Source of the DNA: Sulfurovum sp.
Lineage (GTDB): Bacteria; Campylobacterota; Campylobacteria; Campylobacterales; Sulfurovaceae
DNA length: 40,216 nt
Direction: 5' to 3'
NCBI GenBank assembly: GCA_021647715.1
Contig: JAKIUE010000007.1
Coordinates: 1 to 40,216 of the forward strand
The notes beneath the pieces are model-generated. The model was not told the origin of the DNA. It searched no databases and worked only from the letters and a program-made list of their open reading frames with translations. How positions within the stretch are numbered: the stretch's first letter is position 1; each line of letters starts with the position of its first letter. The translations under genes and the position numbers were made by a program. Below, one piece after another: positions 1 through 2,332 of the stretch.

Positions 1-126
1 ACAAATACAAATACAAATACAAATACAAATACAAATACAAATACAAATACAAATACAAATACAAATACAAATACAAATACAAATACAAATACAAATACAA
101 ATACAAATACAAATACAAATACAAAT
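1..126. repeat. ACAAAT hexanucleotide microsatellite, 21 perfect copies
   Basis: The window opens inside an uninterrupted tandem array of ACAAAT with 21 identical copies and may continue to the left. No frame of the array contains a stop on either strand. On the plus strand it could encode (Thr-Asn)n ending at a TAG at 136-138, (Gln-Ile)n running to a TAA at 161-163, or (Lys-Tyr)n ending at 126-128. It could therefore be the 3' end of a gene off the left edge, or purely intergenic. A hexamer cannot shift a frame, but copy-number change would alter promoter or operator spacing, or the length of a protein repeat. Confidence 0.97.
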
Positions 127-204: not shown

Positions 205-342
205 GAACATTTGTTCATACTATAAATAACATAAAGATATTCATATGAACAAATGTTCATAAATAAAGAATATAGTCAATTAAAATAAGAACGTTTGTTC
301 ATTAATTAATATAATCAAAACTTGACATAAGAACATATGTTC
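205..342. promoter_or_regulatory. Array of four GAAC-N4-GTTC operators at exact 42-bp spacing
   Basis: Four 12-bp inverted repeats lie at 205-216 (GAACATTTGTTC), 247-258 (GAACAAATGTTC), 289-300 (GAACGTTTGTTC) and 331-342 (GAACATATGTTC, a perfect palindrome). Start-to-start distance is 42 bp each time, which equals four turns of B-DNA. The sequence between the sites is not conserved beyond a following CA, so this does not look like a recent tandem duplication. The sites are most likely bound by the TetR-family protein encoded immediately downstream. The fourth lies between the -35 and -10 hexamers, a classic repression position. The binding protein is an inference; the repeats and spacing are read directly. 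Confidence 0.9.
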
Positions 343-350
343 ACTATAAT
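322..350 (+). promoter_or_regulatory. Near-consensus sigma-70 promoter of the TetR gene
   Basis: TTGACA at 322-327 and TATAAT at 345-350 are separated by exactly 17 bp, and the spacer contains the palindromic operator 331-342. An AGGAG ribosome binding site at 359-363 precedes the ATG at 369. This is strong for a phylum in which the -35 box is usually weak, and would suit a promoter kept silent by its own repressor. Confidence 0.88.
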
Positions 351-368
351 TAGTATATAGGAGTTAAT

Positions 369-1022
369 ATGAACGATGACAGAGTCACTTCCCTACCTAG
401 TAAAGGAAGTAAAACGAAAGATAAAATACTAAAAGTGGCTCTAACGCTTTTTGCAACTAAAGGATATAAGGCAACAACAGTGAGAGACATATCTGGGGCT
501 ATGGGAGTGAAGCAAAGTGCACTTTATAATCATTTTAAAAACAAAGATGAAATACTTGAAACACTTATAAGTAACCTCACCTCTTCAGCCATTGTGACAC
601 TATTTGAAGGGAAAGATGCACAGATACTCCATAAGCAGGGTAAATCACTTTTGGCAGGGATTGCTACTACTTTTAAACTTATAGGCTTTGATGGGCAAAA
701 TGAGGCTCTTTATAGGCTACTTATGCAAGAGATATTTAGAAATGAAAGAATTAGAGAAATATACAGTGAACATTTCTACCAGGAAAATGTAAAAAAACTC
801 TCTGGTATTTTTTTTGCAATGATGCAAGAGGAACTTATAGTCTCTTCCGATCCTTTGTTATTGGCAAATGAGTTTCTTTCACCCCTATTCTTTTACCAGA
901 TGCAAGTGACTCTATTGAAACTTGATGATAAATCTACCTCTTCTGTAGTCTCTATGTTTGAGAAACATGTAGATTTGTTTTGGGATCATGTCAAAACAGA
1001 AAAGCAAGCGACACTCTTTTAG
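369..1022 (+). CDS. TetR/AcrR-family transcriptional regulator
   Basis: This 217-aa protein has the usual TetR layout. An N-terminal three-helix DNA-binding domain spans about residues 15-62, with the helix-turn-helix around VRDISGAMGVKQSALYNHF and the family signature F/LYNHFKNKDEIL. An all-alpha ligand-binding and dimerisation domain follows, of a length normal for the family. The ATG is chosen because AGGAG lies just upstream and the promoter ends 19 bp before it. Four palindromic operators upstream, one within the promoter spacer, indicate autorepression. The likely targets are this gene, the methyltransferase and DUF2238 gene behind it, and perhaps a gene left of the window. The inducer cannot be read from the sequence. 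Confidence 0.93.
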   Translation: MNDDRVTSLPSKGSKTKDKILKVALTLFATKGYKATTVRDISGAMGVKQSALYNHFKNKDEILETLISNLTSSAIVTLFEGKDAQILHKQGKSLLAGIATTFKLIGFDGQNEALYRLLMQEIFRNERIREIYSEHFYQENVKKLSGIFFAMMQEELIVSSDPLLLANEFLSPLFFYQMQVTLLKLDDKSTSSVVSMFEKHVDLFWDHVKTEKQATLF

Positions 1023-1118: not shown

Positions 1119-1730
1119 ATGTCAAAAGATTTGTTTTTTCATAAATCAAAATCATGGGATATGAACTCTAAAAGAGTCAAAAATGCACGTAGTATTGCTG
1201 AATTAATAGTAAAAAATATAAAATTAAAATCTACCATGGAAATTATGGATTTTGGAGCAGGAACAGGATTGCTTTCTTTTTTTGTAGCACAAAAAGTAGG
1301 CAAAATTATAGCGGTAGATAACTCCCCTTCTATGTTAGAAGAGTTTAAAAAAAAGTCTCCAGAGTTTGACTGTAAAACTGAAATCATAGAAAAAGATTTA
1401 AGTATAGAGTCACTTGATAGTAAATTTGACGGTATTATATCATCCATGACTATACATCATTTAGAAGATACAGCTGCCCTATTTTCTAAGTTTTATACTA
1501 TGTTGAACGATGGTGGTTTCATAGCAATTGCTGACCTAGATAGTGAAGATGGAAGCTTTCATTCGGACAATACAGGGGTATTTCACTATGGTTTTGATAG
1601 AAAAGAGCTTGAAAAAGTGGCTTTAGAGGCAGGATTTAGGAATATCAAGTTTGAAACGGCTTCTAAGATAGAGAAACCACATCAAACTTTCACGGTATTT
1701 TTAATGACAGCAGAAAAAAAGATAGGTTAA
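1119..1730 (+). CDS. Class I SAM-dependent methyltransferase
   Basis: This 203-aa protein has a Rossmann-type methyltransferase fold. The SAM-binding motif I is DFGAGTG at about residues 45-51, followed by an acidic end of strand 2 (IIAVDNSPSML) and a post-motif region SSMTIHHLED. This resembles small-molecule methyltransferases of the Methyltransf_11/25 group; the substrate cannot be inferred. AAGGAAA lies just before the ATG. The 96-bp gap from tetR is extremely AT-rich and could hold another promoter. The next gene starts 2 nt after its stop, so the pair is co-transcribed. Being behind an autorepressed TetR gene suggests induction by a compound this enzyme might modify, which is inference only. 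Confidence 0.88.
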   Translation: MSKDLFFHKSKSWDMNSKRVKNARSIAELIVKNIKLKSTMEIMDFGAGTGLLSFFVAQKVGKIIAVDNSPSMLEEFKKKSPEFDCKTEIIEKDLSIESLDSKFDGIISSMTIHHLEDTAALFSKFYTMLNDGGFIAIADLDSEDGSFHSDNTGVFHYGFDRKELEKVALEAGFRNIKFETASKIEKPHQTFTVFLMTAEKKIG

Positions 1731-1732
1731 AT

Positions 1733-2332
1733 ATGAAATATCTATGGTTAATTAGTTTTATCGTAGTGTTAGCATGGTCAGGGCTAAATCCTAAAGATCA
1801 ATTTACATGGTTTTTAGAAGTAGTGCCTGCTTTGATTGGTTTTGTATTGATAGTTTGGACATATAAGAAATTCCCCTTAACACCCCTACTTTATACGCTG
1901 ATACTCATACATATGATTATTCTGATGGTAGGTGGACATTATACTTATGCAGACGTACCACTGTTTGATACAATTAAAGCGTTTTTAGGACAAACACGTA
2001 ATAACTATGACAAGGTAGGTCATTTTGCACAAGGTTTTGTCCCTGCCATACTTGCACGTGAACTGTTAATACGTAAAGATATAGTTATTACAGCATCAAA
2101 AGTGTGGCTAAACTATATTATAGTGAGTCTTGTGCTGGCATTTTCTGCGTTCTATGAACTGATAGAGTGGTGGGTAGCACTGGGCACAGGTGAAGATGCT
2201 GAAGAATTTTTGGGAACACAAGGGTATGTGTGGGATACACAGTCAGATATGATGTATGCCCTCATAGGAGGAATATGTGCATTGGTCCTGTTAAGTCATT
2301 GGCATGATAAACAGCTCAAAAAATATCTATAA
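1733..2332 (+). CDS. DUF2238 (YjdF-type) inner-membrane protein
   Basis: The 199-aa product has about five or six hydrophobic segments: near residues 3-20, 30-47, 52-70, 100-112, 122-145 and 172-190. It contains the conserved polar stretches of DUF2238, namely GGHYTYADVP near residue 67, a YDKVGHFAQGF motif near 93, the FYELIEWW motif near 143 and TQGYVWDTQSDM near 159. E. coli YjdF is a member; no biochemical function is established as far as I know. It begins 2 nt after the methyltransferase stop, within the TetR-headed unit. The conserved His, Glu and Asp residues lie in or beside membrane segments, which could mean metal or proton handling, but I do not assign a role. Confidence 0.85.
   Translation: MKYLWLISFIVVLAWSGLNPKDQFTWFLEVVPALIGFVLIVWTYKKFPLTPLLYTLILIHMIILMVGGHYTYADVPLFDTIKAFLGQTRNNYDKVGHFAQGFVPAILARELLIRKDIVITASKVWLNYIIVSLVLAFSAFYELIEWWVALGTGEDAEEFLGTQGYVWDTQSDMMYALIGGICALVLLSHWHDKQLKKYL

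Follow-up and report, generated by a model that had tools for sequence, protein, structure and literature searches.

The gene for a 217-residue TetR-family protein at the start of this Sulfurovum contig is preceded by four palindromic operators arranged on a single face of the DNA helix, and these almost certainly constitute an array selected for its phase rather than a fortuitous cluster. In related genomes of three bacterial families, the corresponding arrays lie beside dif, the site at which Xer recombinases resolve chromosome dimers. The best explanation overall, to which we give an even chance, is that the array is a dif-linked, autoregulated nucleoprotein site. The evidence is comparative sequence analysis, with relatives represented mostly by metagenome assemblies.

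The window (the whole stretch analysed, 40,216 bp) carries exactly four matches to GAACNNNNGTTC (GAACN4GTTC), starting at 205, 247, 289 and 331 and thus separated by steps of 42, 42 and 42 bp (Table 1). The first-pass annotation had reported these positions and this spacing, and both are correct; the motif is found nowhere else in the window. Chance would be expected to provide 0.41 matches and no shuffled sequence yielded four, which, along with the permutation test on step phase given below, leads us to reject a chance origin. The last operator falls within the 17-bp spacer between the -35 hexamer TTGACA (322-327) and the -10 hexamer TATAAT (345-350), as had also been annotated. The genome of 2.15 Mb (166 contigs) has six matches besides the array, all of them intragenic, so that no intergenic perfect site exists apart from the array itself and a wide regulon is rejected for this genome. 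The half-degenerate pattern TAACANNYGTTC gives 7 matches in the genome versus 10 for the reversed control, and hence no excess.

Table 1. Positions of predicted elements and genes in the window
Feature	Position	Strand	Remarks
ACAAAT hexamer run, ~21 copies	1..126	.	contig start, between array and expected dif
Operator 1 (predicted)	205..216	.	GAACATTTGTTC
Operator 2 (predicted)	247..258	.	GAACAAATGTTC
Operator 3 (predicted)	289..300	.	GAACGTTTGTTC
Operator 4 (predicted)	331..342	.	GAACATATGTTC; within promoter spacer; equivalent site conserved in Sulfurovaceae
tetR promoter, sigma70-type, TTGACA-17-TATAAT	322..350	+	nearly invariant in relatives
Ribosome binding site AGGAG	359..363	+	AAAGGAG in relatives
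tetR, 217 aa, presumed to bind the array	369..1022	+	ATG at 369; Pfam TetR_N
SAM-dependent methyltransferase	1119..1730	+	downstream neighbor of tetR in most Sulfurovum-type loci, but not so in Sulfurimonas or Nitratiruptor; non-core
DUF2238 membrane protein	1733..2332	+	next in line and co-oriented in many Sulfurovum-type loci; non-core

Close relatives of the TetR protein are present in about 60 genomes, mainly Sulfurovum-type. In nearly all of these, tetR is preceded by three or four operators spaced in 42- or 43-bp steps, typically at positions -164, -122, -80 and -38 relative to the start codon. Paired GAACN4GTTC sites were recovered by a pattern search in 46 of 397 Campylobacterota genomes, and among the 108 arrays compared, 88 have four sites and 14 have three. 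Where the spacing is exactly 42-42-42 (24 arrays), the operators hold about 2 bits per base and the centres of the spacers about 0-0.5 bits, while the promoter hexamers, the operator between them and the ribosome binding site are nearly invariant. The earlier statement that the intervening sequence is not conserved therefore holds. Its corollary, that the spacing was selected rather than copied, is borne out by nearly invariant operators set among unconserved spacers, and we reject descent of the array from copies of a 42-bp unit for the same reason.

The steps themselves vary in a restricted manner. Over the 108 arrays they measure 21, 22, 24, 31-34, 41-43, 45, 64 or 86 bp, and none is 25-30 or 35-40 bp long. 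Most are near 22, 32 or 42 bp, corresponding to two, three or four helical turns. The step phase has a resultant length of 0.947 at a period of 10.5 bp (permutation p=3e-5 when each distinct step value is counted once). A tree of 106 TetR proteins requires at least 17 changes of turn class (at least 6+8+3), all of approximately one or more whole turns, and some close pairs of loci are one turn apart (42-42-43 in L013 versus 42-32-42 in L038; 32-31-32 in L111 versus 43-31-32 in L112).

More distant branches use other combinations. The Sulfurimonas branch, whose TetR proteins are about 39-48% identical, has four operators at 31-33 bp, and TATAAT directly follows operator 3 in most of these loci, so that the array, as seen from the promoter, is displaced downstream by one site. 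Other Sulfurovaceae mix steps within single arrays (e.g. 43-32-43, 22-33-42 or 33-21-32), and Nitratiruptor-type genomes, a third family associated with difH, have steps of 22-22-22 or 32-32-33. GAACN4GTTC was not found near two Bacillaceae homologs of 33-35% identity (L075, L076). Separately, pairs of the motif at 42 and 31 bp occur at L091 (G330) and L093 (G007), where there is no close tetR ortholog and no dif nearby.

Judged from these alignments, the exact 42-bp step is a lineage-specific trait and a whole number of turns is the conserved feature. Because steps change by whole turns and the spacer sequence is unconserved, selection has acted on the number four and on rotational phase, not on 42 bp. 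The first-pass annotation had named orthologous regions without the spacing as a refuting outcome; the comparison made here does not refute it, as the phased spacing is kept, but 42 bp itself is not. With distances that change while the register is maintained, the arrays offer a natural experiment on helical phasing, repeated many times over.

We infer that dimers of the TetR-family protein bind the four palindromic operators, all of which would then sit on one face of the DNA. Assembly is likely to be cooperative and phase-dependent, with in-phase bending, wrapping or short loops rather than contacts of fixed length. The annotation had proposed a cooperative filament, loop or wrap. Phase-dependent bending, wrapping and short looping fit the whole-turn variation in the steps, but a contiguous filament of fixed geometry is unlikely because steps of 21-24, 31-34 and 41-45 bp are all in use, sometimes in one array. 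Since operator 4 is embedded in the core promoter, its occupancy would most simply repress tetR, and such autorepression, which we regard as very probable, would adjust the amount of protein to the site. Activation of the class I type, with sites at about -62 and -104, is unlikely given the downstream displacement of the Sulfurimonas array.

The main point, which the first-pass annotation missed, is the location of the array. In about 96 tetR loci (89 with classical dif, 7 with difH), a chromosome-dimer-resolution site precedes the array by 27 bp to 3.5 kb. This count of sites within 3.6 kb comes from a scan of tetR loci with the dif consensus and may include a few genomes twice. Nearly every tetR locus with enough flanking sequence has such a site, and most of the remaining loci have only short upstream sequence; no dif was seen within 3 kb upstream of L058, L060 and L065. 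The same scan gave no comparable match at other loci of the window's genome or in most 20-kb flanks. Classical dif is on the same side of the array and nearly always in the same orientation in these loci. The gap between them has no phase of its own and ranges over 27-1846 bp in the flanks read, reaching 3.5 kb in one genome (G289). In three Sulfurimonas genomes the array is far from dif (12 kb in G386, 17 kb in G379 and 80 kb in G311), and contact with dif is thus not strictly required.

A published survey places dif of Sulfurovum NBC37-1 at 1,186,929 in its 2,562,277-bp genome (PMC2731167). In G264, taken as this strain, the array starts at 1,187,525, about 580 bp after dif. In all 10 single-contig or nearly closed genomes whose array contig also carries dnaA, the distance from dnaA to the array is 0.46-0.54 of the chromosome, and in the two genomes examined for GC skew (G264 and G326) its sign switches at the array. 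Symmetric inversions preserve the distance of a gene from the origin, so the position relative to dnaA is weak evidence. The adjacency to dif through changed neighbors is the stronger argument: dif is the sole neighbor common to all families, and the others differ.

The association extends across two recombination systems, as the module occurs both with XerCD/dif and with XerH/difH. In Nitratiruptor-type genomes (G053, G057, G029), a Xer-type recombinase gene is followed by difH, the array and tetR, with the recombinase gene and tetR divergent. In Nitratiruptor SB155-2, xerH is 52 bp from difH (PMC2731167). The Nitratiruptor-type loci L217, L218 and L226 each form one compact divergent cassette of recombinase gene, difH, array and tetR.

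Among relatives devoid of the array, nine lack tetR altogether and a tenth, G204, retains just a broken copy. A search for dif in seven of these ten genomes returned no match with two or fewer mismatches in five and only poor matches in the other two. The paired absence of array and dif is suggestive, but a fixed search pattern could miss a diverged dif. G204 is a small Sulfurovum-type genome of 1.5 Mb in which tetR (L254) is apparently broken into several fragments and neither array nor dif was found.

The dif of the window itself is not seen because the contig begins 204 bp before operator 1, and we expect it to lie beyond the contig end. In L011, the nearest relative, dif lies 479 bp upstream of operator 1. 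The ACAAAT run at the contig start is probably the reason for the break in assembly. Only one weak dif-like sequence was found elsewhere in the assembly, in an AT-rich stretch (L229, G000:C141:5454-5474); it may be a relic or be carried by an element. In the interval that separates dif from the array, Sulfurovum loci L011-L052 have a second AT-rich palindrome resembling TTAATATTTATTAGTATTA, which the window has at about 127-160; it often occurs twice, about 90-100 bp apart.

The persistence of the module beside dif even where the Xer/dif system differs suggests that the complex would most likely serve the terminus, not one recombinase. In two of the three families, moreover, tetR seems to control little besides itself and dif is the sole constant partner, which again argues for action on the terminus. 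The TetR complex may mark or organize dif DNA so that dimers can be resolved, chromosomes segregated or the terminus coupled to division. We consider the chance that its function is tied to dif or the terminus to be about even.

The explanation that competes best is that the protein is a ligand-responsive autorepressor with an elaborate cooperative promoter, whose adjacency to dif reflects conserved gene order without functional meaning. We judge this to be rather unlikely, despite several features in its favor. The core promoter holds an operator in Sulfurovaceae, and the sequences of Sulfurimonas (site 3) and of G057 (site 4) read the same way. The TetR_N domain, the TetR fold and a palindromic operator overlapping the protein's own promoter are all present in the window. 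The 217-residue product matches Pfam TetR_N (PF00440, E=1.6e-15) and no other Pfam family, and its AlphaFold model (pLDDT 84.9) has an ordinary all-helical TetR fold that most closely resembles Lmo2088 and EthR (VIA Z 18.6 to 5ztc). Under this explanation the methyltransferase and DUF2238 genes, which follow tetR in most Sulfurovum-type loci, may also be under TetR control. However, the gene downstream of tetR in Sulfurimonas and Nitratiruptor is convergent and unrelated (in Sulfurimonas, a 2-oxoacid oxidoreductase subunit gene, identified by reading its translation). There is no obvious regulon in these genomes, leaving the protein little but itself to regulate. The lack of any other intergenic perfect site in the window's genome points in the same direction, and the linkage to dif persists through both Xer systems and the replacement of all other neighbors. 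The earlier reading is supported in its helically phased, selected array and its operator-embedded promoter, but taken purely as a device for a steep or graded regulatory response it leaves out dif and does not account for the convergent gene and missing regulon in Sulfurimonas and Nitratiruptor.

Alternatively, the array might be an accessory sequence of dif in the manner of cer and psi, where a wrapped TetR complex would impart topological selectivity to Xer recombination. Phase-locked subsites suit a wrapped complex, and the adjacency to dif or difH in the roughly 96 linked loci, with classical dif on a constant side and in nearly constant orientation, also speaks for the idea. We nevertheless find it improbable, as the array keeps no short or phased distance from dif, in contrast to the compact cer and psi, and chromosomal dif normally depends on FtsK (PMC5357621).

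About equally improbable is a division regulator like SlmA or RefZ that binds both the array and scattered chromosomal sites. RefZ is the best NCBIfam match of the protein (NF037937) and SlmA is matched also (NF007015), but the scores of 60 and 31 bits are far under the cut-offs of 180 and 120, and we reject identity with either. The modeled fold has nothing specific to division proteins in the structural comparison, and neither name appears among the 50 structural matches listed, which does not imply the exclusion of either. Extra perfect GAACANNTGTTC sites are present in the Sulfurimonas-type genomes G326, G009, G343 and G333 (L166-L185) and in G252. All 20 of the 20 inspected are intragenic, mostly in the origin-proximal half of the chromosome, and some are at orthologous positions, in ftsH, a gamma carbonic anhydrase-like gene, rpsE and a recD-like gene. 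A check of synonymous codons at the ftsH site is only suggestive, and it is not phylogenetically independent. The motif is almost confined to the array in Sulfurovaceae, which have no excess of scattered sites; G221, G264 and G058 each have one compact array and at most one or two further sites. Hairpins of the form TAACCTGAGTTC...GAACTCAGGTTA found in G515 (several), G533 and G407 (e.g. L129, L139) are unrelated to the TetR array.

Least probable of all is control of a xer gene, and hence of dimer resolution, by the TetR protein: difH and the array do lie between divergent xerH and tetR in the Nitratiruptor-type genomes, but the arrangement in XerCD lineages would have to be a relic, and there the array is well conserved with xerC and xerD far from dif in Sulfurovum and Sulfurimonas (PMC2731167).

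The dif-linked, autoregulated nucleoprotein site that we favor can be compared with several known systems. TetR-family autorepressors such as TetR, QacR and EthR share with it the fold, the palindromic operator and the placement of an operator within the promoter. Their operators number one or two, or form a single compact composite element. To our knowledge, no TetR-family autorepressor has four phase-locked sites conserved across families, or a linkage to dif. We also know of no MatP, SlmA or ZapT in the Sulfurovum, Sulfurimonas and Nitratiruptor branches. In the literature searched, neither this array nor a TetR protein at dif is described. We therefore tentatively propose, at somewhat less than even confidence, a previously undescribed terminus system of Campylobacterota in which a TetR-family protein and a single phase-locked four-site array by dif, independent of the type of Xer system, link the terminus with the resolution of dimers, with segregation or with division. 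Such a system would single out a particular DNA-binding protein located at dif, in bacteria whose terminus organization has hardly been studied. One protein, one 140-bp DNA and a few cultured strains of Sulfurimonas or Sulfurovum would suffice to test these claims.

SlmA and RefZ are TetR-family DNA-binding proteins with a role in division or the nucleoid (PMC6657595). Unlike the TetR protein considered here, they act at scattered chromosomal sites (SBS for SlmA and RBM for RefZ) with no dif-linked array. SlmA has many sites, richer near the origin, and the near-confinement of the Sulfurovaceae motif to the terminus array is not SlmA-like. The cer and psi sites of Xer-resolved plasmids likewise have protein-binding DNA adjoining the Xer site (PMC5357621). 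Those elements are bound by PepA, ArgR or ArcA and reside on plasmids in a compact, fixed position by the Xer core site, whereas the array is chromosomal, is presumably bound by TetR and stands at a variable distance from dif (27-1846 bp, 3.5 kb or 12-80 kb).

Parallels at the terminus are MatP, which binds matS in enteric bacteria and Vibrio, and ZapT of Caulobacter, a MerR-type member of a regulator family that acts at the chromosome terminus (PMC7188993). Each is a DNA-binding protein of the terminus, a role that we propose for this TetR protein, and ZapT, like TetR, comes from a family annotated as transcription regulators (PMC7188993). MatP and ZapT belong to different protein families, and the only Pfam match and the fold found here are those of TetR. 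Finally, MatP and ZapT occupy many sites spread across the terminus region, whereas the TetR protein is predicted to occupy one compact, four-site phased array at its own promoter beside dif.
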